Source: Deltaproteobacteria bacterium (GTDB lineage Bacteria; Desulfobacterota; DSM-4660; Desulfatiglandales; Desulfatiglandaceae). From it: a stretch of 50,880 nt of DNA. Position 1 is the first letter of the stretch. Each line of letters opens with the position of its first letter. Below the pieces are notes generated by a model. The model did not search any database, was not told where the DNA came from, and saw nothing but the letters and a program-made list of their open reading frames with translations. Below, in pieces: positions 12,253-28,590 of this stretch. Both the position numbers and the translations under genes were made by a program. Location of the stretch: positions 1 through 50,880 of the forward strand of contig JAFDIS010000040.1 of the NCBI GenBank assembly GCA_019307945.1, given 5' to 3'.

Positions 12253-12558
12253 CTATTTCCTGTGCCAGGGAAGCCGTGCCTCCGGATCGGTCCAGAAAAC
12301 CGCAAGCGATAGACTTGTAATAAATCCACCTGCGCAAAAGGCAATCCAAACGGAGAACCCCCACTCCGCTGGGGGGCATGCCTTCAACAGACAAAGGCCG
12401 ACCACGCCATTGACCCAGGCCCAGATGACATTCGTAGCGGGACCGGATCTGCGGGCGAACGGTGTCATATGTCTTTTCCCGCAAATCCCCCGGACCAAAT
12501 GAGGTATGGCATTAAACAGGAATACGCCCGAAAAGAATGGTGCTAGATATTGGGTCAC
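12253..12558 (-). CDS. Small hypothetical membrane protein, translationally coupled to meaB
   Basis: I place the start at GTG 12558, giving 101 residues: the GTG overlaps the meaB stop (GTGA, four bases), and GGAGG lies seven bases upstream inside the meaB end. The protein begins VTQYLAPFFSGVFLFNAIPH and contains about three hydrophobic segments separated by a basic loop (GKRHMTPFARR) and NVIWAWVNGVVGL. It resembles small uncharacterised membrane proteins I have seen with the pattern APFFSG-LF-NA-PHL, but I cannot name a family. It is the last gene of the minus-strand mutase cluster, so a link to uptake or to MeaB is possible but unproven. Confidence 0.7.
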   Translation of the reverse strand: MTQYLAPFFSGVFLFNAIPHLVRGICGKRHMTPFARRSGPATNVIWAWVNGVVGLCLLKACPPAEWGFSVWIAFCAGGFITSLSLAVFWTDPEARLPWHRK

Positions 12559-13505
12559 ACCATTACACCTCCCCTCCCTATGATATCTTGAACAACGGAA
12601 TAAGGATCCCGTTTCCCGTAAAGGACGTCCTGCACGGCTTTTTCCATTGCTCCACACTGTTCATATTGTTCGCGCAGGAACTTGGCCACCTCGTGTTCCA
12701 GGATCGCTGTTAACTCATTCCTTACCTGCCGTTCCCGGCGTTCTCTGTTGTTTGCATGACTGTCAAAACACTCGAAAAGGACCGCAACGAGTTCCGGCAC
12801 ACCCTCTCCGGTGTTGGCTACGGTTCTGAGCACGGCGGGCTTGGGAGATCCTTCCTTACAGCCCAATTCCAGCATTGCCCTCATATCCTCCGCCACTTGG
12901 TCTGCTCCCTCTCGATCAGCCTTGTTGACCACAAAAATATCACCGATTTCCATGATTCCGGCCTTCATGGCCTGTATTGAGTCACCCTGGCCAGGGACAC
13001 AGATAACCAGGACCACATCGGCTGTTTTCACCACCGCCACTTCGTCCTGTCCCACTCCGACGGTTTCTATGATGACAAAATCCTTGCCGAAGGCATCCAT
13101 GATCTTGACCACATCGCGGGCGGCTTGGTTCAGCCCTCCCAGGGCACCGCGCGTGGCCATCGATCGGACAAATACTCCATCGAGGAGGCTGACTGATCTC
13201 ATCCTGAGCCGGTCTCCCAGAAGGGCACCACCGGAAAATGGGCTTGAAGGATCCACCGCAATAATTCCCACCTGGAAGCCTCGTTCAATCAGTTCTAATG
13301 TGATCTTATCCGTTAGGGTACTTTTACCAGCCCCCGGCGACCCAGTGATTCCTAAAACGCGGGCTTTTCCAGTATGAGGGTAAATGGCACGCATGCCCTC
13401 CATCCACCCGGGCTCTCGATTTTCCACACGGGTAATCATCTTAGCCAGAGCCCGAATTTCTTCGTTTCTTATACCTTCCGCCAAATTTTTCCAATCTTTA
13501 ATCAC
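12555..13505 (-). CDS. meaB: Methylmalonyl-CoA mutase-associated GTPase MeaB (ArgK family)
   Basis: This 316-residue G3E-type GTPase guards B12-dependent acyl-CoA mutases: it gates cofactor delivery and protects or reactivates the mutase. The P-loop GSPGAGKST lies at 55-63, followed by VDPSSPFSGGALLGDRLRM (switch I), ETVGVGQDE (switch II) and NKAD (guanine specificity). Length is normal (310-330). It sits about 12.5 kb downstream of the mutase gene in the same minus-strand array, which supports the view that the array is one functional unit. Its last bases overlap the small membrane protein gene. Confidence 0.95.
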   Translation of the reverse strand: MIKDWKNLAEGIRNEEIRALAKMITRVENREPGWMEGMRAIYPHTGKARVLGITGSPGAGKSTLTDKITLELIERGFQVGIIAVDPSSPFSGGALLGDRLRMRSVSLLDGVFVRSMATRGALGGLNQAARDVVKIMDAFGKDFVIIETVGVGQDEVAVVKTADVVLVICVPGQGDSIQAMKAGIMEIGDIFVVNKADREGADQVAEDMRAMLELGCKEGSPKPAVLRTVANTGEGVPELVAVLFECFDSHANNRERRERQVRNELTAILEHEVAKFLREQYEQCGAMEKAVQDVLYGKRDPYSVVQDIIGRGGVMV

Positions 13506-13607: not shown

Positions 13608-14399
13608 CTAGAGTCCTTTAAAGACCGGTTCCCGTTTTTCCAAGAATGCCTTAAACCCTTCTATGAAATCTTGGCTTTGAAGTGTAACTCCCAGCACATA
13701 AGCCTCATAGTCAAGGGCCTGGGCAAGGTCCATCTTGTAAAAATTCTGGAGTCCTCTTTTTGCAAACGCGATCGGGATAGGCGCATTACGGGCCATCCGG
13801 CGGGCCAGATCATAGGTGACGCTCAACAGTTCATCGTGTGGGACCACCCGATTAACCATGCCTATTCTCAACGCCTCTTGGGCGTCAATTACCTCTCCCA
13901 AAAAGATCAGTTCCGCCGCCTTTGCATATCCCACAAGGCGAGGAAGAAAATAGATTCCGCCCCAGTCAGGATGAGCTCCCCGCCGTGTGAAGACCTGACC
14001 AAACCTCGCTTTTTCACTGGCGACTCTGATGTCGCACGAAAGAGCCAAGTTACAGCCACCTCCCGCGGCAACGCCGTTTACTGCTGCGATGACAGGCTTT
14101 TCCACTGTATTAATGGCAAGAACCACTTTGCACATGGTATGCCGTTCATTGGAAGCTGTGGGTGAAAGGGCCTGGGTCTTTCCAGAGACGAATTCATCCA
14201 CGTCCCCGCCCGTACAAAATGCCTTTCCCGCACCCGTAATGACAATCACTCTGACATCTGGATCCGAGCACACGTCTTCCAGGGCCTCTAGAATCTCTTG
14301 CCGCATCCTGCCGGCAAAGGCATTATATCGTTCCGGTCGATTAAGGGTTATGGTTCCTATTTTGTCCTTTTTGTCCAGTAGCACATGCTCCCATACCAT
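13608..14399 (-). CDS. Enoyl-CoA hydratase/isomerase family protein (PaaG-like active site)
   Basis: This 263-residue crotonase-fold enzyme has the oxyanion-hole segments KAFCTGGDVDEF and NGVAAGGGCNLALSCDIRVA. At the position of the first catalytic Glu of enoyl-CoA hydratase (QPE) it has GQVF instead, while an Asp is found in HPDWGGIYFLPR, the place where PaaG-type isomerases (PDSGG) carry their catalytic Asp. An isomerase or hydrolase-like role is therefore more likely than simple hydration. This is read by eye from known family motifs. It shares one base (TAATG) with the flavin oxidoreductase gene upstream. Confidence 0.88.
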   Translation of the reverse strand: MVWEHVLLDKKDKIGTITLNRPERYNAFAGRMRQEILEALEDVCSDPDVRVIVITGAGKAFCTGGDVDEFVSGKTQALSPTASNERHTMCKVVLAINTVEKPVIAAVNGVAAGGGCNLALSCDIRVASEKARFGQVFTRRGAHPDWGGIYFLPRLVGYAKAAELIFLGEVIDAQEALRIGMVNRVVPHDELLSVTYDLARRMARNAPIPIAFAKRGLQNFYKMDLAQALDYEAYVLGVTLQSQDFIEGFKAFLEKREPVFKGL

Positions 14400-15352
14400 T
14401 ATTTTTCTCCCTTAATACCTAAAAAAATGGTGGATAGTTGAGATGAAAGGGATTCGACCTCCTTCATCATCTCCGGTATGATCTCCCCTATATTTTTCAA
14501 CTCCGTTATGAGCCCTGCCACCTGACCACAGGGCATCAGAGAACTGTCCGCATCTCCACCTGATTGAACATAGGACTTGTCACCAGACGCAGTGAGCCTA
14601 TCATCCTCTTGAGCCTTATCCGTGCGGCTGATCATCATGGAGGCCTTGTTTTTCAAAACCCTGATTGGCATGGCGCCTTTTCCCAAAAGGAGCGTGGAAT
14701 CGCTCTTGGCGGTTATCACAAGTTCTTTAAAAAAATCGGGAACCGGACATTCACTGCTCCCAAGGAAACGAGTTCCCATTTCGACACCTTCAGCTCCTAG
14801 GGCAAATGCGGCGAGCAATCCTCGAGCATCGCCAATGCCGCCAGCGGCTACCACCGGGATCCGGAGCACGTCAACTAACTGGGGAACCAGGCATAAGGTG
14901 GTTACCTGTTCTCGTCCGATGTGTCCACCGGCCTCAAATCCCGTGGCAATGACCCCATCGACTCCGGCTGCCTCTGCCTTCACGGCCATGTCCACGGTAG
15001 AAACCTTATGCAAAACCTTTATGCCTGCCTCTCGAATGCGGTCTATAAACTTGCCAGGGTTCCCAGCAGATGTGGTTATAACTTTAATTCCCACCTCAAT
15101 AGCTATTTCCAGCGCTTCGCTGGCGTTGGGACGGTAAAGCGGGATATTCACGCCAATAGGTCGGTTTGTAAGATCTCGTGCTTTCATCAATTCCGACCTC
15201 AAACGATCAGGAGAAAGACCGGAAGCGGCGATCTGGCCAAAACCGCCACTCTCGGAAACAGCGGCGGCCATCTCCCCCAGCGTGATAAGACGCATCGGCC
15301 CCAGAATAATGGGGTAAGCAACTCCCAGAATTTCGCATATTCGATTTTTCAT
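14399..15352 (-). CDS. NAD(P)H-dependent flavin oxidoreductase (nitronate monooxygenase/FabK-like)
   Basis: This 317-residue FMN-binding TIM-barrel protein begins with GPMRLITLGEMAAAVSESGG, has EAGGHIGREQ (FMN/substrate loop with the conserved His) and PVVAAGGIGDARGLLAAFAL plus GAEGVEMGTRFL, the phosphate-binding end. Length fits the nitronate monooxygenase (2-nitropropane dioxygenase) and FabK group. In an anaerobe an enoyl-CoA reductase-like role is more likely than an oxygenase role; this is inference. The gene overlaps the acyl-CoA ligase by four bases (ATGA) and the crotonase by one, so the three are co-translated. Confidence 0.88.
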   Translation of the reverse strand: MKNRICEILGVAYPIILGPMRLITLGEMAAAVSESGGFGQIAASGLSPDRLRSELMKARDLTNRPIGVNIPLYRPNASEALEIAIEVGIKVITTSAGNPGKFIDRIREAGIKVLHKVSTVDMAVKAEAAGVDGVIATGFEAGGHIGREQVTTLCLVPQLVDVLRIPVVAAGGIGDARGLLAAFALGAEGVEMGTRFLGSSECPVPDFFKELVITAKSDSTLLLGKGAMPIRVLKNKASMMISRTDKAQEDDRLTASGDKSYVQSGGDADSSLMPCGQVAGLITELKNIGEIIPEMMKEVESLSSQLSTIFLGIKGEK

Positions 15353-16911
15353 GGCGCATTCCCCAAGGTAGTTCCATACTTTTCTTTCAACTCAACTTTT
15401 TTGATCTTTCCGCTGGCGGTTATGGGAAGGTGATCCACAAATTTTATGTGCCTCGGAAATTTGTACCTCGCAATTTTGCCTTCAAGAAAGTCATAAATCT
15501 CTTGTTCCGTCATATCGTTGCCTTTTTCCACCACCACAAAGGCCATGCCCGTTTCTCCCCACTTCTCATCGGGTACACCGATAATAGCGACGTTAACGAT
15601 CTTGGGATGTCCGGCGAGCACTTTTTCGATTTCAGCAGGATATACATTTTCGCCCCCGCTGCGGTACATGTCCTTGGCTCTGTCAACAATGTAGAAGTAA
15701 CCCTCATCGTCCTGGTATCCTAGATCACCCGTATGAAGGACGCCGTTTACAATGGTCTGAGCTGTCTCGTCAGGCATATTCCAATAGCCGCTCATCACGG
15801 TTGGACCCTTTGCCACAACCTCCCCGATTTTTCCCGGAGGCTGTCTCCGACCTTCTTGATCGACGATCCAAATCTCGGTGAAAAATCCGGGCATCCCGAC
15901 CGAGCCCTCTTTACGCTGAATATCCTCCTTGGGCAGCATCATCATGGCCGAGTTTTCAGTCTGACCGAACCCCTGTTGCATATGAATACCCCGTTTGGCA
16001 AGCTCCTCAAGCAAGAGCGGTGGCGTACGCTCCCCGCCACCGATCACCTGCCTCACACTGCTGATATCGACCTGGTCCAGCTTGCCGGATTCGAGGATGA
16101 ACTTCCACATCGTCGTCAGGGCGAAAATCACCGTCGCTCGGTACGTCTCGATGTCCAGAGCGAATCTCTCCGGGTCGAAGCCCTGCCGCATGACCGTAGT
16201 AGCACCGGCACACAGAGCCGGGTTAAGGCTGATAAACAGCCCTCCGGAATGAAAGAGAGGTAGTTGAGCCAGATAGACGTCATCAGTACCTAGTCCGTTG
16301 TAAAGCATGATCTGGAAGTTCTTGAAAAAGGTCTGATGGTGCGAGACCACGGCTCCCTTGGGTTGCCCGGTCACACCCGAAGTGTAAATGATGGCCAGAG
16401 GGTCGTTCAGTTCCACGGGCCGGTCCACCTCCGGCTCGTCCTTGGGCCAGCCGGCCACGGCCTGCTCATACGACACGGCCCAGTCAGGACACTTGGACGC
16501 ATGGGGGCCAAGACTCTTCACGAACAAATATTTATCCTCATCGATGGGCACATTGCCTCGAATGGAGTCGATTGTGACGGTGAAGGCGTCGTGGAAGGCA
16601 AGTAGGCGAGCCTGACAGTTATTGAGTTGGTATTCCAATTCCGGGCCAACCAGCCGGAAGTTGAGCGGTACAAATATCAGGCCGATCTTGGCAGCGGCAA
16701 AGTAAAGGTAAACGAACTCCGGGCAGTTGAGCAGGTCTACGGCGATACGGTCGCCTTTCTTCAAGCCCAAGCCCTGGAGGTAATGGGCGGCCTGGTTGGA
16801 CCGTTCGTTGATCTGCCTAAAGGTAATGGGCCGGTCCTCGAAAATTATGGCCGATTTGTCCGGTGTGAATACGGCCCGTTTTGCGGCAATGTATCCGATA
16901 TTCCATTCCAT
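15349..16911 (-). CDS. AMP-forming acyl-CoA synthetase
   Basis: This 520-residue class I adenylate-forming enzyme has the P-loop IIYTSGVTGQPKGAVVSHH (Val in place of the usual Thr), GFGQTENS, the hinge HTGDLGYQDDEGYFYIVDRAKD, and the C-terminal catalytic Lys in PITASGKIKKVELKEKYG. Length is typical for FadD/MenE-like ligases. The start has AAAGGAG upstream. It is the only ligase in the minus-strand mutase cluster and so the likely enzyme that activates the acid imported by the TRAP transporter encoded nearby. The substrate is unknown. Confidence 0.9.
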   Translation of the reverse strand: MEWNIGYIAAKRAVFTPDKSAIIFEDRPITFRQINERSNQAAHYLQGLGLKKGDRIAVDLLNCPEFVYLYFAAAKIGLIFVPLNFRLVGPELEYQLNNCQARLLAFHDAFTVTIDSIRGNVPIDEDKYLFVKSLGPHASKCPDWAVSYEQAVAGWPKDEPEVDRPVELNDPLAIIYTSGVTGQPKGAVVSHHQTFFKNFQIMLYNGLGTDDVYLAQLPLFHSGGLFISLNPALCAGATTVMRQGFDPERFALDIETYRATVIFALTTMWKFILESGKLDQVDISSVRQVIGGGERTPPLLLEELAKRGIHMQQGFGQTENSAMMMLPKEDIQRKEGSVGMPGFFTEIWIVDQEGRRQPPGKIGEVVAKGPTVMSGYWNMPDETAQTIVNGVLHTGDLGYQDDEGYFYIVDRAKDMYRSGGENVYPAEIEKVLAGHPKIVNVAIIGVPDEKWGETGMAFVVVEKGNDMTEQEIYDFLEGKIARYKFPRHIKFVDHLPITASGKIKKVELKEKYGTTLGNAP

Positions 16912-17100: not shown

Positions 17101-18450
17101 TCAGACGAGATTCACCTGCCGTATCACACTTCGCACGTTCGGCACTTCATCCAGGGAGCGAAAAGTCGACATCAACGTAACGGCTTTCCGCTCGCCCAAC
17201 ACGGGTGCGCACAGGTCCATGAATTTACTCTCGACCTTGCTCCGTTTTTTAGAAATCTCCGGGATCTCATTCAGGACGTCCGACTGGCCCTCAAAAACCC
17301 GACCGTCTCGGGTCTTGACCTCAACCCGGGCCTCCAAGGCCGATATCTGCGGATCGGGAACAACGGCAATCTTTTTCATTATTGATTGGACCTCCGGATC
17401 CCGTACCATTTCATCGGTAAAAGCCTGAATCCCCGTATTTCCCCTCAATAGTGCGTTGGCCACACAGTAGGCGTAACTGAACTTACCCTCAAGGCCGGTC
17501 TTCGGATCGGGATTTCCGGCGATGTCGATAGCCATACGGGACGCATGGACGGTCAAGCTCTCAATCTCATTCAGGTCCAAGCCCTCCCTGGCAACGACGT
17601 CCAGGGCCGCCTCGATGGGCGAGTGGGTGGCGTGGCAAGACGCGTGATATTTTTGGACCAGCTTGTCAGCCTCCCAGGTCTTGCCCAAGGATGCCAGCGC
17701 CTCCTGGTTGACCGCACCTTTCAGTAGGTCGAAAAAACCGTGTTGTCCTTCAAGGATGTCCTCGGCGCTGGTGAAACCGTTTTCGGCCAGCAAGGCCGAT
17801 TCCAGCCCCACCTGTGCGGCCTTGCCAGCGTGATAAGGCTTGGTCATGGTGCCAAAAACACGCTTCAATCCAGAAGCCTGGGTACCTGCGATCCCCAGGG
17901 CCCAGAGAGCATGTGGCTCGTCCAGTACCAACAGACGCGCGCATCCAGCCGCGGCGGCCAGGCGGCCTATTGTTGACGTACCGTGCCATCCGGCTGCATA
18001 GTGTTCCAGGCCCGCGCAGGCGCCTATGGTGGCCCCAATCTTGAGGCCGATCAGGTATGCCGTCAACAGTTCACATCCGCTTTTTTCCTTCCACTCAGCC
18101 AAGGCCGTCAGGGCGGGGAACAAGATCACCGACGGATGGCCCAGAAAATCGGCCATGGAGTCATCGTAGTCCAGGGCGTGAGAGGCGGAACCGTTGATGA
18201 GCGCAGCCTGGCACGCGCTGACCTTCATGCCCCGGCCCAGGATGGTGGCCTGCGGGAATCCACCCATGAGTCGGGCAAAGTGGACCAACTTTTCCACCAA
18301 GGGCTCCTCTTTCCCGGCCATCAGCACGGCAAACCAGTCGAGCCAGGCAACCTTGGCGTGCTCATACATTTCGGCCGGTATATCCTCAGGCCAGGTTTCG
18401 GCGATGAAACGGGCCAAGTTCCTTGTCAGTCCGACTTCGCTGACTTTCAT
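17101..18450 (-). CDS. MmgE/PrpD family protein
   Basis: The protein has 449 residues when started at ATG 18450, which has AAGGAG seven bases upstream; the open frame extends 14 residues further, but that stretch is charged and has no ribosome site. It shows the family landmarks LDWFAVLMAG near the N-terminus, NGSASHALDYDDSMADFLGHPS (landmark only), and HACHATHSPIEAAL-like text (YHASCHATHSPIEAALD). Family members include 2-methylcitrate dehydratase, cis-aconitate decarboxylase and iminodisuccinate epimerase, so it may dehydrate, decarboxylate or epimerise a di- or tricarboxylic acid. Neighbouring TRAP and mutase genes suit a branched polycarboxylate. The exact reaction is not readable. Confidence 0.88.
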   Translation of the reverse strand: MKVSEVGLTRNLARFIAETWPEDIPAEMYEHAKVAWLDWFAVLMAGKEEPLVEKLVHFARLMGGFPQATILGRGMKVSACQAALINGSASHALDYDDSMADFLGHPSVILFPALTALAEWKEKSGCELLTAYLIGLKIGATIGACAGLEHYAAGWHGTSTIGRLAAAAGCARLLVLDEPHALWALGIAGTQASGLKRVFGTMTKPYHAGKAAQVGLESALLAENGFTSAEDILEGQHGFFDLLKGAVNQEALASLGKTWEADKLVQKYHASCHATHSPIEAALDVVAREGLDLNEIESLTVHASRMAIDIAGNPDPKTGLEGKFSYAYCVANALLRGNTGIQAFTDEMVRDPEVQSIMKKIAVVPDPQISALEARVEVKTRDGRVFEGQSDVLNEIPEISKKRSKVESKFMDLCAPVLGERKAVTLMSTFRSLDEVPNVRSVIRQVNLV

Positions 18451-18507
18451 TGTTCTCTCCTTGTCCTCATCCTCCCTGCCCGGGCGCGTCATGGGCAGTA
18501 GGCTGCC

Positions 18508-20565
18508 TCACCCAATCAACAAACCAGGCAGAAAAAGGCTGAGCCGGGGAAAAGTATATAAAATAATCATGCCCAGCAGCATAAGCAGGTAAAAGGGCAG
18601 CATGCCCTTGATAATCGGGGCGAGTCTCGACCCTGTGATACCTTGGATCACGTATAAATTGAGCCCCACGGGTGGAGTGATGAGCGCCATTTCCATATTG
18701 AGGGTCATTAGGACCGCGAACCAGATGCCGTCAAAACCCATTTTCATAACAATGGGATAGAGGATGGGCAGCGTAATCATCATGACGGACGCCACTTCAA
18801 GGAACAGCCCCAGAACGGCGAGCAAGATCATCATGGCAAGGATGACCATCCCCGGGGAAAGGCTAAGATCGGTGATAGCCGACATAGCCATCTGAGGCAG
18901 GCGAAGCAGGGTAATGAAGCGGCCCATAGTAAGGGCGCCTGCGATTATAATCAGGATAAAGCCGGCGTTGAGTCCGCACTCAGTCATAAGGCGCGGCATG
19001 TCCCTCAACCTGACTTTGCGCCGCAACAATACCATGGCGATGGTGTAGATGGCGGCCACTGCGCCGCATTCCAGAACGGTGAAGACACCGGTAAAGAGAC
19101 CAGCCACGATCAGCAATGGGACCAGGATGACCCAGACCGCATTACCCAGGGCCCGCCAACGCTCGTTCCATGACGGAGCGATTTCCTTTTCATAAGCCCG
19201 GGTCCGCCAAGCGTACAGAAACGTGTAGAGGACAAACATCATCACCAACAAGAGACCCGGGATGATGCCTGCTATCAAGAGTTTGCCCATTGACTCTTCA
19301 GTCACGGCGGCGTACAGGATCATGGTCCCGGATGGCGGAATCATGATGCCCAGAGTGGATCCGGAACCTACCAGTCCATAGGAAAAGGACTTCCGGTATT
19401 TCCTTTTGGTCAAGGCCGGTAAAGCGATCAGGCCGATGGTCGCCACGGTGGCCACGCTCGAGATGGAGATGGCTGCGAAAAACGCGCAGGACAAAATGGT
19501 CGCCAGACCCAGCCCCCCCGGCAAACCGCCGATCCATTTGCTGAAAAGTTCATAGAGTTCTTCCCCGCTTCCCGAGCCTTCAAGAATAAAGCCCGTCAGA
19601 ATAAAGAGGGGCAGGGCGGCCAACGTAAAATTGCCGATTCCAGCGTAAAAAATTTCAGGCACCTGAGTCACGGCCAAATGACCGCCGAAGTGGAGATAAA
19701 GTCCCATCATACCCAACAGGCCCAGGGCCGCGAAAATCGGCACACCTGCGAAAAGGATAACCAGCAGGAAAACCACCACACCCAGTGCGGGATGGGTGAC
19801 GAGCAGCCAGCTCGAAACGGCCATCAGCACCACAAACCAAAACAAGGCCTGTAAAAAGGCTTTGTCCCACAAGCCTACATCTTCCTTTCCGGTCTGCATC
19901 CCATCCGGCCGGGTAACGCTGAACACCCGTCGGGCGTTGCTCAGGAGATCTGAGATCATTTGGAAGCAAAGGAGAAAAGCGCCGATGGGCATGGCCAACT
20001 TCATGGGCCATATGACGGGGGCCCAGATCGATGCCGAGGTCTCTCCGCTTTGGAAGGACTCCCAGAAATCCAGCCAGGAAAAATAAAGCAGTATGATGGT
20101 GAAAACCAGAGTCAGCGTCAGGGTCACAAAATTCCACAGCAGGGCGGTCCGGGCCCCGAAACGGCTGATAAGCAGATCGACGCGTACATGGCGTCCCAGT
20201 CTCTGACACATGGCCAGCGTGAGCAGGCTAAACCAGACCATCAGAAAGGTAACCAGCTCGATGGACCATGTCGTAGGAGCATTAAAGAACCTCCGCATCA
20301 TGATCTCATACAGGACGACAAAAAGAATGGTCACAAGCGTTATTCCCGCCGCAAACGCTCCGACCCAAGACATGATGCCCGAGCCTCGTTCAATCCACCC
20401 GATCAATCGCTTCACCACCGTCCCCATTTCGTTTTGAACCGCGTCGATTATTCTGGATAGATCCGAGTCTCGTTGATGCCGTCTCGGCCTTTTCGAGAGG
20501 CCGTTGATCCAAGGCAGAGCAGCAACTTCCGCCCGGAATCGGTTCGGACCCGCATCCCCCCGCAT
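18508..20565 (-). CDS. TRAP transporter fused permease (DctQ-DctM)
   Basis: This 685-residue membrane protein combines the small (DctQ, about residues 60-210) and large (DctM, about 245-685) TRAP permease subunits. The DctM part shows GVPIFAALGLLGMMGLYL, GLGLATILSCAFFAAISISSVA and GLVGSGSTLGIMIPPSGTMILYA, the last being the core substrate/sodium region. The start is unclear: residues 1-46 are arginine-rich and unlike a membrane protein start, and ATG 20427 would give a more usual N-terminus (MGTVVKRL), but neither has a good ribosome site. It works with the DctP protein encoded just upstream, using a sodium gradient. Confidence 0.9.
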   Translation of the reverse strand: MRGDAGPNRFRAEVAALPWINGLSKRPRRHQRDSDLSRIIDAVQNEMGTVVKRLIGWIERGSGIMSWVGAFAAGITLVTILFVVLYEIMMRRFFNAPTTWSIELVTFLMVWFSLLTLAMCQRLGRHVRVDLLISRFGARTALLWNFVTLTLTLVFTIILLYFSWLDFWESFQSGETSASIWAPVIWPMKLAMPIGAFLLCFQMISDLLSNARRVFSVTRPDGMQTGKEDVGLWDKAFLQALFWFVVLMAVSSWLLVTHPALGVVVFLLVILFAGVPIFAALGLLGMMGLYLHFGGHLAVTQVPEIFYAGIGNFTLAALPLFILTGFILEGSGSGEELYELFSKWIGGLPGGLGLATILSCAFFAAISISSVATVATIGLIALPALTKRKYRKSFSYGLVGSGSTLGIMIPPSGTMILYAAVTEESMGKLLIAGIIPGLLLVMMFVLYTFLYAWRTRAYEKEIAPSWNERWRALGNAVWVILVPLLIVAGLFTGVFTVLECGAVAAIYTIAMVLLRRKVRLRDMPRLMTECGLNAGFILIIIAGALTMGRFITLLRLPQMAMSAITDLSLSPGMVILAMMILLAVLGLFLEVASVMMITLPILYPIVMKMGFDGIWFAVLMTLNMEMALITPPVGLNLYVIQGITGSRLAPIIKGMLPFYLLMLLGMIILYTFPRLSLFLPGLLIG

Positions 20566-20739: not shown

Positions 20740-21768
20740 CTATCTTGCCTTGGTTTCCTCCACCCATGCGTCATGCTGATCGACGAGTTTCCGGCCGAAC
20801 CGTTTCACGGCCGCCGCTCTCAAGGCGGGTTCGATTACCGGCGCAAAGACCTTTTCGTATTCATCCCTGGATACCTCGTAGATATCCACGCCCTTGGTTT
20901 TCAAGGCGGCTATGATCTTGTCCTCCATGGCCAGGACCATCTTGGTGCATGCCTCAGTAGCCTCTTTCCCGGCGTCCATTATGACCCGCTGCAGATCAGG
21001 GGGCAGGCTGTCGAACCACTGCTTGTTCGCCACAATCTGGAAGTCGGTGGTCAGGTAACGAGGCATGAACACGTATTTGGCAACTTCATACCACTTGCGA
21101 GCATAGAACGATCCCAACCCTGAGTGCGCGCCCTGGATGGTGCCGCGCTGGAGGGCCATGTACACGTCGGCCGAACTCATGACCGTTGGCACACCGCCCA
21201 AAGCCCTGGTTTCAGCCGCCAAAGCGCGGGAGGATATCCGGATCTTCATGCCTTTCATATCTCCCGGCCTACGAACCGGTTTGGTCAGGATGTATCCGGC
21301 CCGGGCGGCGTAAAGGATGGGAGCGATAACGACGCAATTGGCCTTTTCTGCCAGCAACTTTTTCTGATAGTCGTACAGGGGGCCACGATAGAGGCGAAAA
21401 TAATGGGCGAGGTCATCGTACGACTTTCCACCGTAAGGATAAATTTCCGGAATCAAACCGGCCCACCAAGGAAAGTAGGTCTGAGCCATCTTGACTGTGC
21501 CGTTGAAAATCGCCTTGGGGACCTCCTTGTCCCTTAAAAGCTGGCCAGATGGAAAAGATTGCAACTCAAGACGGCCGTTGGAATGCTCGGTTGTCGTCTT
21601 GCAAAAAAGGTCCATAGCCTTCGTGATGGGATGACCTACCGGCATCTGGCTGGGGACCTGAATCTTCCGAACATAGTCTCCTGCTTGTGCCGAACCGACG
21701 CCGGGCATCCACATAACCAGGGACAACAGTACACTGAACAGTACGGCCTTACCAACAATACTTCTCAT
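20740..21768 (-). CDS. dctP: TRAP transporter substrate-binding protein (DctP family)
   Basis: This 342-residue periplasmic protein starts with a signal peptide (basic MRSIVGK, hydrophobic core, cut near GSAQA-GDYV). The mature part has the DctP pattern of two alpha/beta lobes; PGDMKGMKIRI and DVYMALQRGTIQGAHSGLGS match the conserved family segments that bind the carboxylate ligand. In most DctP proteins an Arg in the first segment (here KIRIS) binds the substrate carboxylate. It is the first transporter gene downstream of the decarboxylase-like crotonase, 78 bases away, within the mutase cluster. AAGGAGGGAG precedes the start. Confidence 0.92.
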   Translation of the reverse strand: MRSIVGKAVLFSVLLSLVMWMPGVGSAQAGDYVRKIQVPSQMPVGHPITKAMDLFCKTTTEHSNGRLELQSFPSGQLLRDKEVPKAIFNGTVKMAQTYFPWWAGLIPEIYPYGGKSYDDLAHYFRLYRGPLYDYQKKLLAEKANCVVIAPILYAARAGYILTKPVRRPGDMKGMKIRISSRALAAETRALGGVPTVMSSADVYMALQRGTIQGAHSGLGSFYARKWYEVAKYVFMPRYLTTDFQIVANKQWFDSLPPDLQRVIMDAGKEATEACTKMVLAMEDKIIAALKTKGVDIYEVSRDEYEKVFAPVIEPALRAAAVKRFGRKLVDQHDAWVEETKAR

Positions 21769-21846: not shown

Positions 21847-22644
21847 TCACTTACCTGTGAACAGGGGGCTGCGCTTTTCCAAAAAAGCGGCTTGACCTTC
21901 CTTCAGGTCTTCACTGTTGAAAGCCTCGGCCACGATTTTCTCCGCCTCCCGCCGGTCCTGTTCGCTGATCACAAAGCTTCCGGCCAGGATGGACAGAATA
22001 CGCTTGGTTCCTTTGACCGACAGAGGTGCGTTGGCTGCGATCTCTTCGGCAAAACCGTAGGTGACCGCCTCCAGTTCCTCTCTGGGCACCAAGTAGTTGA
22101 CCAGACCCATTTCCTTGACCCGCGGGGCGTCATAATAACGGCCCGTGTAGAACAATTCTCTCGTCAAAGGCAGACCCAGGATCTGAACGAAACGAACCAG
22201 ACCTTCAAGCGGATAAACCACGCCCAGCTTGGCCGGGGGCATACCCATACGTATATGATCCGCGGCCACGCGCATGTCGCAGCAGACTGCAAGCTCGCAC
22301 CCGGCACCGAAGGCGTACCCGTTGAGCATGGCGATGACTGGATAGGGATAATTAATAACGCTGCTCATGGCCAGTTCCAGGGGATTTTGCACCTTGAGTT
22401 TTTCTGCGATTTCCGGATCGACATTAGTGGGAATCGAGCCGATGTCATAGCCTGATGAAAACGCCTTGTTTCCCGTACCCCGAATGACCACACAGCGAAC
22501 CTCGTCCTTGCGGCGGAGTTCTTCCAAAGCCTGGTGAATCCTCACGAGCAGTTCGGGCGAAAGGGAATTGCGCTTTTCCGGGCGGTTGAGGACCAGAGTG
22601 GCCACAAGTCCCTTTTTTTTCACGACTAGGACGTCACTATCCAC
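21847..22644 (-). CDS. Enoyl-CoA hydratase family protein resembling methylmalonyl-CoA decarboxylase (ScpB/YgfG)
   Basis: This 265-residue crotonase-fold protein has oxyanion-hole segments KAFSSGYDIGS and NGYAFGAGCELAVCCDMRVA. Both catalytic Glu residues of enoyl-CoA hydratase are missing: the usual QPE region reads MPPAKLGVVYPLEG. That segment matches the GVPYNL region of E. coli YgfG, where Tyr140 is important for decarboxylation; Tyr144 is the equivalent here. I therefore favour decarboxylation of a malonyl-type CoA ester. The assignment is by eye. It lies three bases from the CoA-transferase gene and beside the B12-binding subunit, the same company ScpB keeps in the Sbm pathway. Confidence 0.85.
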   Translation of the reverse strand: MDSDVLVVKKKGLVATLVLNRPEKRNSLSPELLVRIHQALEELRRKDEVRCVVIRGTGNKAFSSGYDIGSIPTNVDPEIAEKLKVQNPLELAMSSVINYPYPVIAMLNGYAFGAGCELAVCCDMRVAADHIRMGMPPAKLGVVYPLEGLVRFVQILGLPLTRELFYTGRYYDAPRVKEMGLVNYLVPREELEAVTYGFAEEIAANAPLSVKGTKRILSILAGSFVISEQDRREAEKIVAEAFNSEDLKEGQAAFLEKRSPLFTGK

Positions 22645-22647
22645 AAT

Positions 22648-23850
22648 CTAAACCTCCCTATGAATGCCGATGACCTTCCTGGCCTCGAGCTCTAAAATTT
22701 TTTCCTCGGGATATTCCAGCAGCCCAGCTAGCACCTCGTGGGTGTGTTCCCCCAGTTCAGGAGGGCACTGGAAACGTTCCTCCATGCCGATGGCCTTGAT
22801 CGGATTGCCCGCCAACCTGACCTCGCCAGCCCTGGGGTGGGGGATGCTGATGGTCATCTTTCTCTCCTTGACTTGCGGATCTTCAAGGGCCTGAGCCAGA
22901 GTGTTGACGGGCGCGCAGGGCACGCCTTGGGCCTCGAGGCGCTGGAGCCATTCGTCGCCCGGCCGCCGGATGAGGGTATCCTTGATGATCTTTGTGAGTT
23001 GGTCGTGGTTCTTCAGGCGTTTTTCCGCGGTATCGAAACGCTCATCCCTGATGAGTTCCTCCATGTCCAGAGCTCGACAGAAGCATTCCCAGAACTTAGG
23101 TGTCACACAGGTTACCACGATCCATCTGTCCTTTGTCGGAAACGCCTCATAGGGCACAATCAATTCATGGCGCGATCCCTGGGGCCCAGGGTCGTCTCCG
23201 GTCATAAAGTAATAGGCCGACAGATAGGTGCTCATGGAGACGAGGCAGTCCAACAGACCGACATCGATTTTCATACCCTGCCCGGTAGTGCGGCGATGGT
23301 TGAGGGCGGCGAGAATGCCGATGACAGCGAACATGCCGCCAGCCACGTCTCCCACCGGCAGACCCATGCGGCAAGGAGCCCCGCCGGGCTCGCCGGTCAG
23401 CCCCATGGCCCCGCTGAGGGCCTGCACGATCAGGTCGAAGGCGGGTCGGTCCCGGTAGGGTCCGCTGTGACCGAATCCGCTGAGGGAACAGGAGATAATC
23501 CCGGGATTGTAATGTTTGATCTTCTCATAGTCGCAACCCAGCCGCCGGAGGGCATCGGGCCGCATGTTGTCGACAACCACGTCGCAAATCTTGACCAAGT
23601 CGTAAAAGACGGCCAGACCGGCGGGCTGTTTGAGGTCCAAAACAACGCTTTTCTTGTTGCGGTTGATGGACAGGAAGTAGGTGCCTATGCCGCCGGGGGT
23701 AACGTGTCCGCCGTACCGGGTAAAATCGCCCATCCGGTCTTCGATCTTGATGATTTCAGCACCCAGATCACCCAGAATCATGGTCCCGTAAGGTCCGGCC
23801 AGCATGCGAGTCAGATCCAGGATGCGCACGCCCGAAAGCAGCCCCGTCAT
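22648..23850 (-). CDS. CaiB/BaiF (class III) CoA-transferase
   Basis: This 400-residue protein begins with [30 protein letters not shown] and has [13 protein letters not shown] and the [19 protein letters not shown] segment with the conserved catalytic Asp. [16 protein letters not shown] follows the transferase form rather than the racemase form (no His-Asp pair at GHD). Class III enzymes move CoA between acyl groups through a covalent Asp-acyl intermediate. It overlaps the B12-binding subunit gene by four bases (ATGA). It may transfer CoA from the mutase or decarboxylase product to the incoming acid, which is inference. Confidence 0.92.
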
Positions 23851-24266
23851 CCTGCGCCTCCTTCCCCGCGCCGGATCTTCACGTGCCTCTTAATGGATTC
23901 AACCACCTGCCCGATCTCGGTGCCGGAGGTGAATATCTCGGCCACCCCCATTTCTTTGAGAGCTGGAAAATCTTCCTCCGGGATAACCCCCCCGACAAAG
24001 AGGACTACGTCGTCGCCCCCCCCCTCTTTAAGTTTATCCGCCACGCTGCGGACGAGCCCCAAGTGGGCGCCGGACAGAATGGAGAGGCCCACGACTTGTA
24101 CGTCTTCCTGTAAAGCGGCCTTAACGATAGCCTCCGGCGTCTGGCGCAGTCCGGTATAGATGACCTCGAAGCCAGCATCGCGTAGCATGTAGGCAATGAC
24201 CTTCGCCCCCCGGTCGTGTCCGTCCAGTCCGGGTTTGCCGATCAGAACCCTGATTCTCTGTTCCAT
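23847..24266 (-). CDS. Cobalamin B12-binding domain protein, small subunit of acyl-CoA mutase
   Basis: This 139-residue Rossmann-like domain binds adenosylcobalamin base-off/His-on. The motif D15-G-H17-D-R-G20 carries the axial His17; GLSILSGAH and [10 protein letters not shown] are the SxL and GG motifs that hold the nucleotide tail. The size equals a free-standing B12 subunit as in isobutyryl- and 2-hydroxyisobutyryl-CoA mutases. The catalytic subunit is encoded 1.8 kb upstream, with the radical SAM gene between them (12-base gap), an unusual split. Confidence 0.94.
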
Positions 24267-24278
24267 TCTCGTTCTCCT

Positions 24279-26108
24279 TCAGTCAAAGATTGGATCGCAA
24301 TGCACCAGCGCCACTGGTATGCCCACACGGCGCTCGAGTTCCTTGTATACCGTTCCCCTCAGGTCCCTGCCCCAGCCGCTGAGATGAAAAGGCGACGAGG
24401 GCAACAGAATCAAGTCCGGACGTCCCAGTCTCTCGTCCAGGAAATCATGCACGGCCCGGACAAAATCTTCTACTACCAGCAGGTCGCCCATGAAGATGTT
24501 TCCCCCGAAATAGTGATTGACTGGGACTCGCAGATACAGGACCACATTTGAAAAATGAGCCTGTTCGCGGATCATCTTTTCCAGGGCGGGCTGGATCAGG
24601 CGGGAAGTCAGCAGCAAAACGCATGAGGCCCGACGCAGTACGACGACTCGGCGCAGATTTTCGATCCAGGAAGGAGGCAAGCCCGAACTGGCGAAGACGA
24701 TCCCCAAATTGCCCACCGTGCGGGGGTCGTAAGGATAGTCGAATCGGCTGGGTTCGAGTTCCAGGTCCACCTTGCCGCCTTGCCTCTGAACAGTCATGGG
24801 AATACGGTTCCGATCGCTTTGATGCAATAGAGTCAATAAGGACCGGGCCTGAGGCCGATTTTTCACCGCGAGTCCGCACAGGGTCAAAATGCGGTCTCCA
24901 GCTCGGAGGCCAGCCATGTCCGCTGGCGAATTCTTGATCACGCCAATGGGTCGGGGATCGTTTACGGATTCCGGATCCTGGTATTCCTCGTACAGCCCGG
25001 GACGGAGGATCAGAGGGCTATTCGTCTTCCCCCGCAAGGCCCGCACCGTTTCCTTGATCTTCATCCATACCTTGTCGCTATCAAAAAGCTCCCGCTCCGC
25101 AAAAAAGCGGGAGTATCCGGGGAGACTGATCTGGAAAAAGGCGGGATCGCTTTTGTCGGCGAATGCCACTGTGTCTTTGAGGTCGTCGATCATATCCCGG
25201 GTAGATGGAAAGGGCCAAGGCACGATGACGACGGAGTAAGGCAGTCCAGCCGCCTGGAGACAAGCCATAGACTCGATGGCTGTGTCGGGCCTGGGATCGC
25301 GCATCAGCCAGCGCCGGCGGGTCGGCGAGGCGGAGTTAAGGGAAACGTCCAAGAAAAGAGGGCGGAACTCGGTCAGACGCTTGATGGTTTGCACCCCGAG
25401 CAGCGATCCGTTGGTGGGGATACGGATCGTCTCCTGCGTTTTTCGTCGCAGTGCGGCCAGGAGGTCCATGATGCGGGGATGGAGGAGGAACTCACAGGGA
25501 CCGCCCATGCGTGGAAAGAGCCCCACTCCGGAGGCAGGCACGTAATGTGATATCCTGGTCAGGATCTCCCGGTATTCCTCTTCCGGGGCGCGCGGTGCGG
25601 GCCGGAAGGCCGGAGGGCTGCCAAGGTTGTAACAGAAGCGGCAGTTGAGATTGCAGCGGCTCGCGGCATGAGCCAGTATATCAGCGGCTCCACCTACTGT
25701 GCTTAACCACTGGTCCGGGCGTCTGAGCCTGAAGCCGTCAACCGCAACCCGGCGGCCCTGGAACTCAAACTCGACGACATCGAGGAGTGACTCGGCGAGA
25801 TGCCTCACGTAGCCCAGGCGCGGCTCGTAGATGTCCAGAGGGTCACATGTTTCCCTTTTCGGACCGCTTTTCGGCTCGGGATAAAGCTCGAAAATTGCCT
25901 CCGGATCGCTGAGCAGGCTGAAGCCATCGATCTTGACCTCCTCTCCCCGCCAGGTCAGGTTCAAAAGGTCGAGCAACTTCCGCAGGTGCTGTGCGACCAT
26001 CTCCCTGAGATTAACCGCAACGCGACCCTCCTTCCGGTCCAGTGGGAAGCGGAACACGTATTCCGGCTCGCGCGCGGGCTCAAAATATGGATGGCGGTTC
26101 GTATTCAC
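24279..26108 (-). CDS. Radical SAM protein with PDZ and DUF512-like C-terminal domains
   Basis: This protein has 609 residues from GTG 26108, chosen because AGAGG lies seven bases upstream; a TTG one codon earlier is possible. Residues 1-140 are unrecognised and contain two similar segments (VKIDGFSLL, VAVDGFRLR). The radical SAM core follows with CNLNCRFC (about 152-159), which binds a [4Fe-4S] cluster. About 387-455 is a PDZ domain (IGVIKNSPADMAGLRAGDRI). The end (about 520-605, NHYFGGNIFMGDLL then LILLPSSPFHLSGWGRDLRG) resembles the C-terminus of DUF512. Known radical SAM/DUF512 proteins usually have PDZ first, so the order here differs. The start overlaps the end of the mutase gene by 29 bases. 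Function unknown; modification of the mutase, its cofactor or its substrate is conceivable. Confidence 0.85.
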   Translation of the reverse strand: MNTNRHPYFEPAREPEYVFRFPLDRKEGRVAVNLREMVAQHLRKLLDLLNLTWRGEEVKIDGFSLLSDPEAIFELYPEPKSGPKRETCDPLDIYEPRLGYVRHLAESLLDVVEFEFQGRRVAVDGFRLRRPDQWLSTVGGAADILAHAASRCNLNCRFCYNLGSPPAFRPAPRAPEEEYREILTRISHYVPASGVGLFPRMGGPCEFLLHPRIMDLLAALRRKTQETIRIPTNGSLLGVQTIKRLTEFRPLFLDVSLNSASPTRRRWLMRDPRPDTAIESMACLQAAGLPYSVVIVPWPFPSTRDMIDDLKDTVAFADKSDPAFFQISLPGYSRFFAERELFDSDKVWMKIKETVRALRGKTNSPLILRPGLYEEYQDPESVNDPRPIGVIKNSPADMAGLRAGDRILTLCGLAVKNRPQARSLLTLLHQSDRNRIPMTVQRQGGKVDLELEPSRFDYPYDPRTVGNLGIVFASSGLPPSWIENLRRVVVLRRASCVLLLTSRLIQPALEKMIREQAHFSNVVLYLRVPVNHYFGGNIFMGDLLVVEDFVRAVHDFLDERLGRPDLILLPSSPFHLSGWGRDLRGTVYKELERRVGIPVALVHCDPIFD

Positions 26109-27825
26109 CAAAAACGCCTCTCAGTACGTCGCAGACTTCCTGCAGAGTCACGTAGGCCTTGGCACACTCTATCATCAGTGGCAGTAGGTTTTCCCTTTCG
26201 TCCTTTGCCTTTTGCTCCAGTTTACCCAACAGGCGCCTGACTTCCTTCTGGTCGCGCATCCGTTTGACCTCTTTCAGATTAGCGATCTGTCGTTCCTCTG
26301 CTCGGGCCCGGCGCTCCGGATCGTAAGGGTGCGGGACGAGCCGGTTCGTTTGGACCTCGAGTTCATTTTCGCCGATGAAGCAGTTCACACCGACGATCTG
26401 GATGTCGCCGTTTGAAATGGCCCGTTGGTACTTGTACGCGCTTCGGGAAACCGCCCGCTGAACGTAGCCCTTTTCGATTGCAGCAACGATGCCGCCCATC
26501 CCGTCGATCTTGTCCATCTCGGCCTGGGCCGCAGCCTCAATCTCATCCGTCTGGGCCTCCATATAGTATGAACCGGCAAATGGGTCGACCACGTCGAGGA
26601 TCCTGGCTTCGCAGGCCAGGATGCGGCCTGTGTCCTGGGCCAGTTGCTGGGCTTCACGGCTCCAGCCCAGGCCTAGGGGCTCGTCGTAGGGCGGAAAAGC
26701 CGCCGGCGGGCCGCCTGACATGGCCCCCGCCATGGCCCCGATAGTCGCCCGGATAACATTGTTGAGAGGTCTCTGCTTGGTCGTGCTCGAGGGGCCGATG
26801 TGGGCGCAGATGGGCTGCCGGATAATCATGCTCCGCGGATCCTTGGCCCCGAAACGCTCCTTGAGGAGGCGAGCGTACATGCGCCGTGCGGCGCGCTGGA
26901 AGGCGATCTCCTTGAGGACTTCCATGCTGCCGCCGAAGGCGTTGAAGGTGAAACGCGGGGCAAAGGCGTCCACGTCCTGACCGGCGTCAACCCCGGCCTG
27001 GATATAGGCGGTGGCGATGCTAAGACTGAAGGCCAAGTCCTGCACGCGGGTGGCGCCGGCTTCGCGAATATGATACCCGCCCATGCTGGTAATGTTCATG
27101 CGCGGCATGTGCCGGGTGATGAAGACCAGGGTGTCACGAAAAAGCCGCATGGCCGGGCCAGGAGGGAAAATGTACGTTCCCCGGGCGATGTACTCCTTGA
27201 GGATGTCGTTCTGGGGCGTGGCCCTAAGTCGATCGATGGGTATGCCGCGCTTTTCGGCCAAGGCAACGTACATGGCGATCAGGTAGATGGCCGAGGCGTT
27301 GACCGTGAAGTTGGAAGCGATATTATCCAGGTTAAGATCGCCCTGGTAGGGTTCGTAAATCACTTCCAGATCGCGCAGCGTGTCGATGGCCACACCAACC
27401 TTCCCGACTTCCCCCTCTATAAGTTCGTTGTCCGAATCGTAACCGCACTGAGTGGGCAGGTCCATGGCCAGGTTGGGGCCCTGCCTGACCCCGCGCTCGA
27501 TGTTCTGTCGGTAGTAGTCCCGGGTGTCTTCAGGCGTGCCGTAGCCCGAATACATGGCCGCCCGGGTCAGGCCCGAACTCTGGGGAGCCTTGGCCGCCAG
27601 TCGGGACAACCCAGCCATAGGATCGAAGGGGTAGGTCCCGGCCGTGAAGGGATACTGGCCCGGGAAGCCGACTTTCTCCAAAAAATCGAAGTCGCTTCGA
27701 TCGAGCGGCGTGTAGTACCGAGCGGGCGGCTCCTGGAGAAACGAAAACCGCTCCATCGCCTTTTTCAGTGCCCCCTCTTCCCACGCCTTTTTCTCCGCCT
27801 TGATCTTGTCCTCTTGCTCGGTCAT
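26080..27825 (-). CDS. Coenzyme B12-dependent acyl-CoA mutase, large (catalytic) subunit, divergent
   Basis: This 581-residue TIM-barrel protein belongs to the methylmalonyl-CoA mutase family without the fused B12 domain. Family landmarks are YSGYGTPEDT (91-101 region), DLPTQCGYDSD, GEVGKVGVAIDTL, QNDILKEYIARGTYIFPP and GGYHIREAG. By eye, Tyr92, Arg215 and His252 match Tyr89, Arg207 and His244 of P. shermanii methylmalonyl-CoA mutase; Tyr plus Arg is the pattern of enzymes whose substrate has a free carboxylate. Other barrel segments are unlike the family: FNAFGGS (294-300), RQPICAHIGPSSTTKQ, and SGGPPAAFPPYDEP (370-383) where most have GGTQSLHTNS-DEA. A known reaction cannot be assigned. It follows the GntR gene by 33 bases. 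Confidence 0.9.
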   Translation of the reverse strand: MTEQEDKIKAEKKAWEEGALKKAMERFSFLQEPPARYYTPLDRSDFDFLEKVGFPGQYPFTAGTYPFDPMAGLSRLAAKAPQSSGLTRAAMYSGYGTPEDTRDYYRQNIERGVRQGPNLAMDLPTQCGYDSDNELIEGEVGKVGVAIDTLRDLEVIYEPYQGDLNLDNIASNFTVNASAIYLIAMYVALAEKRGIPIDRLRATPQNDILKEYIARGTYIFPPGPAMRLFRDTLVFITRHMPRMNITSMGGYHIREAGATRVQDLAFSLSIATAYIQAGVDAGQDVDAFAPRFTFNAFGGSMEVLKEIAFQRAARRMYARLLKERFGAKDPRSMIIRQPICAHIGPSSTTKQRPLNNVIRATIGAMAGAMSGGPPAAFPPYDEPLGLGWSREAQQLAQDTGRILACEARILDVVDPFAGSYYMEAQTDEIEAAAQAEMDKIDGMGGIVAAIEKGYVQRAVSRSAYKYQRAISNGDIQIVGVNCFIGENELEVQTNRLVPHPYDPERRARAEERQIANLKEVKRMRDQKEVRRLLGKLEQKAKDERENLLPLMIECAKAYVTLQEVCDVLRGVFGEYEPPSIF

Positions 27826-27858: not shown

Positions 27859-28590
27859 TCAGGATTTGGTCCTGACCAGTTCGGCCGTGCTTTGGTATGT
27901 GTCACCCGGGAAATGGGTGATCGCCATTTCCAAGGCCCTTTCGGTCTTTGTAAAATAGGTCCGCTTAACCACCAACAGTGGATGCCCTCTAGCAACCCCC
28001 AGCAATCCGGACAGTCTCTCGTCGGCTAATGCCGCAGAGGTTATCTGATGGGCTCGAACGGCGGAATCCAACGCTGCCCTCTCCACCCTCTGGATGAAAT
28101 ACGGGCTTTCCAGTTCCTCGATTTCGATGCTCCAGCCCATGTCCTCAGGGACATAGGCCTGAAAAAACGCCTTGTGTCCTTCGTAAAAACGCAGTCCCTC
28201 GAAAAGCCACAGCCTTTCGTCAGGTTCCAGCCTCATGTCCCGGACCATATCAGCCGTAGGTTCGATCAACGTTTTCTCTTTCAACACGAGAGTTGTACAG
28301 GCCCCCAGCAGAAGGAGATCCTCCAACGTCCCATAGAGTTGATAACGTAATGGGCCGTTTTCCTGTCGATTGACGAAGGTGCCCCTGCCCTGCTCCCGGC
28401 GTATGAAGTTGTTGCTCTCAAGGATCATCAGGGCCTGACGTACCGTGGTGCGGCTGACGCCGAATTCTTCACAGAGTTCTTTTTCCGTGGGAAAGGAACG
28501 ATCGAAGGCAAAAGTTCCGGACATGATCCGTTTTCTGAGGACCCGTTCGAGCTGGCAGTAAAGTGGGATGGGTTTTTTTCTCAGCTTCAA
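27859..28590 (-). CDS. GntR family transcriptional regulator (HutC/UTRA type)
   Basis: This 243-residue regulator has an N-terminal winged helix (about 10-78: FPTEKELCEEFGVSRTTVRQ, then REQGRGTFV) and a C-terminal UTRA ligand-binding domain (about 95-235). Length is typical for HutC-type GntR repressors. It is the first gene of the minus-strand mutase cluster and divergent from the thiolase-like gene at 28988. Two similar ACATGCTT-containing sites in the divergent region are its most likely operators. The inducer is probably an acid or CoA ester of the pathway. Confidence 0.93.
   Translation of the reverse strand: MKLRKKPIPLYCQLERVLRKRIMSGTFAFDRSFPTEKELCEEFGVSRTTVRQALMILESNNFIRREQGRGTFVNRQENGPLRYQLYGTLEDLLLLGACTTLVLKEKTLIEPTADMVRDMRLEPDERLWLFEGLRFYEGHKAFFQAYVPEDMGWSIEIEELESPYFIQRVERAALDSAVRAHQITSAALADERLSGLLGVARGHPLLVVKRTYFTKTERALEMAITHFPGDTYQSTAELVRTKS

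Follow-up and report, generated by a model that had tools for sequence, protein, structure and literature searches.

A radical SAM-PDZ-DUF512 protein was found to be tied to one clade of B12-dependent mutases across two bacterial phyla, and this was supported by gene order and by co-occurrence in genomes. Its gene, called the central gene here, was located in the window, the whole stretch of 50,880 nucleotides that was analysed. The results suggested that the protein is probably a class-2 cobalamin-dependent radical SAM enzyme. We tentatively propose that it is a dedicated partner of alkylsuccinyl-CoA-type mutases, most likely as a maturase.

The central gene and its cluster

The central gene started with GTG at position 26108, with GAGG eight bases upstream, and stopped at 24279 (Table 1). 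The ORF was real and conserved, with full-length homologues that were 38-55% identical. It overlapped the gene of the mutase large subunit by 29 bases, and the gene of the B12-binding subunit began 12 bases past its stop. The large subunit carried the MM_CoA_mutase catalytic domain, and its B12-binding subunit was encoded separately. These coordinates agreed with the original prediction that the gene separates the catalytic and B12-binding subunit genes of the mutase and overlaps the former. A search of the own genome gave no second copy of this type of gene. Homologues of the protein were also rare in two genome draws, in which they were found in 13 of 393 Dehalococcoidia and in 18 of 395 genomes of the window's phylum.

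Along the minus strand, the gene order was GntR/UTRA regulator, large subunit, central gene, B12-binding subunit, CoA-transferase, ECH1, TRAP transporter, PrpD, ligase, NMO, ECH2, and MeaB. The CoA-transferase, enoyl-CoA hydratase, and PrpD-family genes also travelled with the central gene. Clusters bearing the radical SAM gene often encoded organic-acid transporters, which were of the TRAP, tricarboxylate, or MFS type in several of them, so the pathway substrate seems to be imported. Some Dehalococcoidia clusters encoded a Na+-pumping decarboxylase. At the loci L086-L090 of this class, the genes of a methylmalonyl-CoA-type decarboxylase of this kind were accompanied by those of the hydratase, the radical SAM protein, and, on contigs that reached far enough, the mutase. 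At L003 and L006, the radical SAM gene was part of an ETF/FixC operon distant from the mutase and was flanked by EtfA and hydantoinase-like genes.

Table 1. Features of the central gene and its cluster in the window (positions are those of the window; residues are those of the central protein)
Feature	Position	Strand	Basis or remark
GntR/UTRA regulator heading the cluster	27859..28590	-	similar gene kept in G093
Mutase large subunit (methylmalonyl-CoA-mutase family), candidate target	26080..27825	-	PF01642 3.6e-138
Radical SAM-PDZ-DUF512 protein, 609 aa (central gene)	24279..26108	-	ORF, Pfam, homologues
N-terminal repeat 1 (residues 19-70)	25899..26054	-	profile comparison; separate 81-88 aa ORF in several Dehalococcoidia
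N-terminal repeat 2 (residues 94-135)	25704..25829	-	radical SAM-fused in all homologues seen
Radical SAM domain (residues 136-376)	24981..25703	-	Pfam; fold
CX3CX2C cluster motif C152/C156/C159, then aromatic Y160	25632..25655	-	alignment
PDZ domain (residues 387-475), probable carboxylate-binding loop L468-G469-I470 after last strand	24684..24950	-	Pfam, fold
DUF512/Mmp10-like cobalamin-binding domain (residues 476-607)	24288..24683	-	Pfam, alignment, fold
Mutase B12-binding subunit	23847..24266	-	B12-binding domain 6.1e-25
Family III CoA-transferase	22648..23850	-	kept near homologues
Enoyl-CoA hydratase/isomerase family protein ECH1 (methylmalonyl-CoA-decarboxylase-like)	21847..22644	-	recurrent neighbour
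TRAP transporter solute-binding protein DctP	20740..21768	-	
TRAP transporter fused DctQM	18508..20565	-	
MmgE/PrpD family protein	17101..18492	-	found near homologues
AMP-forming acyl-CoA ligase family	15349..16911	-	
Nitronate-monooxygenase-family flavoprotein (NMO)	14399..15352	-	
Second enoyl-CoA hydratase family protein (ECH2)	13608..14399	-	
MeaB, mutase chaperone GTPase	12555..13505	-	TIGR00750, 314 bits vs cut-off 241

Domain architecture and enzyme class

Pfam gave a Radical_SAM match at residues 151-309 (E 6.6e-14), a PDZ match at residues 389-451 (E 6e-6 to 2e-5), and a DUF512 match, to its second half, at residues 494-602 (E 3.3e-4, under the curated cut-off). By themselves, the sequence searches against Pfam and the PDB gave weak evidence for the cobalamin domain, and Mmp10 was not recovered by sequence searches with the central protein. 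The assignment was settled by fold comparison. An AlphaFold model built with 20 homologues had a pLDDT of 78.4 and a pTM of 0.78, with low confidence in the N-terminal region. The model matched pfDUF512 of Pyrococcus furiosus (PDB 9CG2; PMC11659888) with a Z of 20.9 over 313 of 358 residues, and both the SAM and cobalamin domains were covered. The match to Mmp10 (PDB 7QBS; PMC8828468) had a Z of 17.8 over 324 residues and covered both catalytic domains despite the PDZ in between. Radical SAM proteins without the DUF512/Mmp10 C-terminal domain reached a Z of up to 16.7, with only about 200 residues matched. Foldseek ranked 9cg2, 9cg1, and Mmp10 at the top from both predicted models. The original prediction named the lack of a PDZ or DUF512-like fold as a possible outcome, but both folds were present in the models. 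These fold matches suggested that the central protein is probably a class-2 (DUF512/Mmp10) cobalamin-dependent radical SAM enzyme, and this assignment to the family is well supported.

A 2024 study established that DUF512 binds cobalamin: all four of the DUF512 proteins tested did so and converted it to methylcobalamin with SAM (PMC11659888). Two DUF512 structures have an Mmp10-like C-terminal domain (PMC11659888), and DUF512 proteins and Mmp10 are grouped as class 2 in a review (PMC13331322). By homology, the central protein would also bind cobalamin. Since DUF512 binds cobalamin, the central gene encodes a probable second B12 enzyme beside the B12 mutase.

The alignments were used to compare single residues. 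Across 20 sequences, C152 and C156 of the cluster motif were invariant, and C159 was nearly so. Y160, directly after the third cysteine, was kept in the mutase-linked homologues and was the counterpart of F95/Y47/Y23 in the solved enzymes, in which this aromatic residue separates the cluster from the cobalamin (PMC11659888). A GG-x-x-E type motif (G202, G203, E206) was located at the expected site of the SAM-binding motif, and E206 was kept. In the profile alignment with csDUF512 of Clostridium sporogenes (PDB 9CG1; PMC11659888), the nearly invariant L543 was the partner of the lower-axial Leu366. T501/S502 were one or two residues off Thr323, which was compared for its role as the Thr/Ser that hydrogen-bonds the dimethylbenzimidazole tail, and S502 was invariant. 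The LGI after the PDZ was conserved with an invariant glycine G469, as in the carboxylate-binding loop of csDUF512. L468-G469-I470 is therefore a probable carboxylate-binding loop by alignment and PMC11659888. The DDD cluster-loop motif of the csDUF512 type was absent.

Pfam, the profile comparison, and the fold all gave the domain order that had been read at first, namely an N-terminal duplication, radical SAM, PDZ, and a DUF512-like domain. The remark that this order departs from PDZ-first DUF512 proteins also held, as csDUF512 has its PDZ at the N-terminus (PMC11659888). In the central protein, the PDZ (residues 387-475) followed the radical SAM domain and preceded the cobalamin domain. The two proteins have in common a radical SAM domain, a PDZ, a cobalamin-binding domain at the C-terminus, an LGI-type loop past the final PDZ strand, the aromatic residue after the third cluster cysteine, and the equivalent of the lower-axial leucine. 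However, the central protein differs from csDUF512 in its duplicated N-terminal region, in the GG-x-x-E type motif in place of DDD, and in its mutase link. pfDUF512 was the best structural match, with the radical SAM and cobalamin domains arranged alike, but unlike the central protein it has no PDZ and no repeats. Mmp10 shares the class-2 fold, and the methylation of a target enzyme is a proposed likeness only. Mmp10 is archaeal, acts on methyl-coenzyme M reductase, and has neither a PDZ nor N-terminal repeats.

The N-terminal region had no match in Pfam. A profile-profile comparison by hhalign of residues 15-75 with residues 90-140 gave a probability of 97.4%, an E of 9.8e-12, and a score of 52.9, compared to a top score of 11.3 among 40 control segments. 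The tandem duplication of the N-terminal region is genuine. In six Dehalococcoidia genomes (G171, G173, G223, G253, G267, G365), repeat 1 was detached from the main gene, either as an ORF of about 80-90 codons directly before it or split off by an in-frame stop. Because it was separately encoded, repeat 1 can probably act as a separate piece. Separate repeat-1 ORFs were located at L088 1891-2133, L089 1483-1725, L090 5263-5511, and L095 4814-5077. Distant relatives that lacked recognisable repeats at the N-terminus were also observed (L004 4440-6179, L040 333-1745). They had the radical SAM, PDZ, and DUF512 domains in the same order, in genomes without any such mutase. This suggested that the domain order is a wider architecture and that the repeats mark the mutase-linked subfamily.

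Co-occurrence with one mutase clade and the MasD link

Co-occurrence was monitored in 393 genomes of the Dehalococcoidia class and 395 genomes of the window's phylum, mostly bins and assemblies of varying completeness, with thresholds for the mutase clade set by E-value. In Dehalococcoidia, the mutase clade was found in 11 of the 13 homologue-bearing genomes at the strict threshold, compared to 10 of 380 others (Fisher 3e-14, a test that ignores kinship among genomes). A twelfth gene-bearing genome of this class, G476, had a mutase of the clade that was cut at a contig end. In the window's phylum, the counts were 15 of 18 and 20 of 377 (Fisher 4e-15, again ignoring kinship), and the former became 17 of 18 if the partial mutase genes in G141 and G585 were included. 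The two draws are different groups, and the gene was scattered in both. The mutase clade was distinct, with members 48-76% identical to the window's mutase. It also occurred without the central gene in many genomes (19 in the phylum draw), and genomes with only distant relatives of the central protein had no mutase of the clade. It had been asked at the outset whether homologues occur mostly without the mutase. They did not, since nearly all homologue-bearing genomes had the mutase clade.

A mutase gene was located within 7 kb of the central-gene homologue in 19 of 33 loci. Where at least 5 kb of sequence was available on both sides, this was the case in 11 of 14 loci. The homologues without a mutase within 7 kb were mostly on cut contigs, and a few were truly elsewhere. 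The mutase was not adjacent yet present in the genome in G149, G152, G103, G140, and G237. In G149 and G152, the gene was located in an ETF operon, and the mutase elsewhere was the only mutase match of each genome. The gene orders among the loci were mutase-rSAM-B12, rSAM-B12-mutase, and mutase-hydratase-rSAM. The original description of the gene as locked into a mutase module was thus right in that it is tied to the mutase type, but too strong in that about two-fifths of the homologues had no mutase within 7 kb and other genes co-travelled. In the distance matrices, the central protein correlated with the B12-binding subunit at r 0.94, with the large subunit at 0.86, and with ECH1 at 0.62, while the subunits gave 0.75 with each other; such correlations are weak evidence because linked genes share histories anyway. 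Expansions of methylmalonyl-CoA-mutase-like genes were observed in single genomes, with 13 matches in the window's own genome (G000) and 19 in G122.

The identity of the mutase was judged from its pocket and its neighbours. The SMR-type arginine, which we take to bind the substrate carboxylate in methylmalonyl-CoA mutase, was kept in the clade. The canonical methylmalonyl-CoA pocket loop of the PTMYRG type was absent throughout the clade in the alignment. The clade-wide loop was longer and different, which makes it likely that the substrate is another or a larger dicarboxylyl-CoA. A glycyl radical enzyme beside mutases without the central gene matched 1-methylalkylsuccinate synthase MasD (9o8u) with 1484 bits (examples of MasD-adjoining mutases are G119, G608, G743, G762, G833, G853). 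Alkane degradation via fumarate addition includes such a mutase step (PMC7701123). As the gene-less relatives of the mutase usually adjoin alkylsuccinate synthase, the mutase was placed in alkylsuccinyl-CoA-type metabolism, and the window's mutase is probably an alkylsuccinyl-CoA-type mutase. The MasD/AssA module (PDB 9O8U) has the same mutase clade and a PrpD-family protein beside MasD in gene-less genomes. However, MasD is a glycyl radical enzyme that adds fumarate to alkanes, and it is not homologous to the central protein. Mutases of the clade adjoined MasD-type synthases or activases at L099, L096, and L101 and in G555, G608, G743, G762, G814, G833, and G853. Where the flanks could be read, a PrpD-family gene was common to both the MasD-linked and the rSAM-linked mutase modules. 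In the own genome, contig 92 gave a glycyl-radical-like match, with no intact synthase on inspection.

Among the mutase-bearing genomes of the phylum, MasD was found in 4 of 19 with the central gene, compared to 15 of 19 without it (p 9e-4, which is optimistic because the genomes are related). A strict exclusion was rejected, since G171, G237, G561, G657, G685, and G706 had both, some via more distant relatives. On contig 46 of G561 (L157), a mutase and a MasD-type synthase were located at about 32 kb, and a second mutase and a radical SAM gene at about 50 kb. In the mutase tree, the MasD-linked mutases formed one clade nested among the rSAM-linked ones. The latter were scattered and also found at the base, which points to an old link with a probable loss in the MasD branch.

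Possible role in mutase maturation

If the central protein is a maturase, the [4Fe-4S] cluster on C152, C156, and C159 would cleave SAM to a 5'-deoxyadenosyl radical, and a second SAM would methylate the cobalamin in the C-terminal domain. The outcome would be C-methylation of a mutase residue at an unactivated carbon, much like the methylation of an arginine in methyl-coenzyme M reductase by Mmp10. The protein substrate would be bound by the peptide groove of the PDZ together with the duplicated N-terminal region. There are precedents, since methyl-coenzyme M reductase is reported to be methylated by two radical SAM enzymes, Mmp10 and MgmA (PMC8828468, PMC11796369). The domains, the fold prediction, the cluster motif, the gene cluster, and the co-occurrence were established computationally; from these we infer methylation, the mutase as target, and docking by the PDZ. 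That this DUF512 subfamily is a dedicated maturase, in which one cobalamin radical enzyme puts a C-methyl mark on a B12 carbon-skeleton mutase, is possible but rather doubtful. Points against it are the many genomes in which the mutase clade does without the gene, the other pathway genes that co-travel, the sub-threshold DUF512 score, and the low-confidence N-terminal part of the model.

The PDZ domain and the extra N-terminal region fit a protein substrate. PDZ ligands end in a hydrophobic residue. This was the case for all 18 complete rSAM-linked mutase large subunits and for none of 17 neighbouring hydratases. The mutase in the window ends in PPSIF. A PDZ ligand specific to the rSAM-linked mutases was rejected, as nearly all mutases of the clade, partner-less ones included, had hydrophobic C-termini. 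Since two SAM would be used per methyl group in an anaerobic catabolism of imported acids, a modification made once per protein is favoured over use for each substrate. Y65, Y95, and T101 set the rSAM-linked mutases apart from the MasD-linked ones, and the tyrosines Y65 and Y95 were kept in the former and lost in those linked to alkylsuccinate synthase. The alignment gave no mutase residue exclusive to genomes with the central gene, as all three residues were also found in gene-less genomes. Y65 and Y95 are candidates only for the modified residues, judged from the sequence. A search of the literature for radical SAM, PDZ, or cobalamin together with acyl-CoA mutases gave nothing relevant.

The main alternative, which the MasD pattern makes a serious one, is that the central enzyme acts on a small molecule of the pathway. 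By radical methylation or C-C rearrangement, it would convert a dicarboxylate or CoA ester before or after the mutase, and its reaction could stand in for a feeding enzyme such as alkylsuccinate synthase. The tendency of the gene and MasD to exclude each other is consistent with this, as are the two mutases of G561 with one of the two radical enzymes beside each, the nesting of the MasD-linked clade, and the co-travelling CoA-transferase, PrpD, and hydratase genes. However, the TRAP, tricarboxylate-type, and MFS transporters of the clusters suggest an imported substrate, SAM at each turnover would be very costly for an anaerobic catabolic pathway, and the PDZ domain suggests a protein partner. 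We consider this reading rather unlikely. It is still less probable that the central enzyme modifies another protein of the module, such as ECH1 or a partner encoded elsewhere, and that the mutase link reflects a shared pathway only. ECH1 adjoined the gene in many loci, also with the Na+-pumping decarboxylase clusters, and the ETF operons of G149 and G152 carried the gene away from the mutase. On the other hand, ECH1 was not near the gene in G122, G149, G152, and G103, where the mutase clade was present; its distances fitted the gene least well, and its C-termini were not PDZ-like.

A service to the cofactor, in which the central protein makes, repairs, or delivers cobalamin to the B12-binding subunit, appears the least probable. 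For example, a 5'-deoxyadenosyl radical and cob(II)alamin would give adenosylcobalamin. In its favour, the gene of this predicted cobalamin protein adjoins that of a cobalamin-binding subunit, the tree distances of the protein followed that subunit best, and adenosylcobalamin was found on DUF512 proteins, but the latter was derived from the E. coli host (PMC11659888). Of 21 genomes that carried the central gene, 20 had an ordinary adenosyltransferase (PF02572 or PF01923), which weakened the cofactor salvage that had been offered as one role, and a need to replace them was rejected. MeaB is also a dedicated accessory of methylmalonyl-CoA-type mutases, but it is an unrelated G protein. Its presence in the same cluster argues against a cofactor service, and its replacement by the central protein was likewise rejected. 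Of the three roles first offered, which were modification of the mutase, cofactor salvage, and action on the same substrate, modification of the mutase is the likeliest.

DUF512 enzymes comprise about 6000 sequences without a known substrate or reaction, and a 2025 review lists this as an open question (PMC13331322). Gene clustering and co-occurrence link the subfamily described here to one defined enzyme and make the mutase the first specific candidate for the target of a DUF512 enzyme. If mutase maturation is its role, this would be, to our knowledge, the first B12 mutase known with such a modification and the first assigned DUF512 reaction. Enzyme-modifying cobalamin radical SAM chemistry would then extend beyond methyl-coenzyme M reductase, and an unnoticed component would be added to anaerobic catabolism via alkylsuccinyl-CoA-type mutases.
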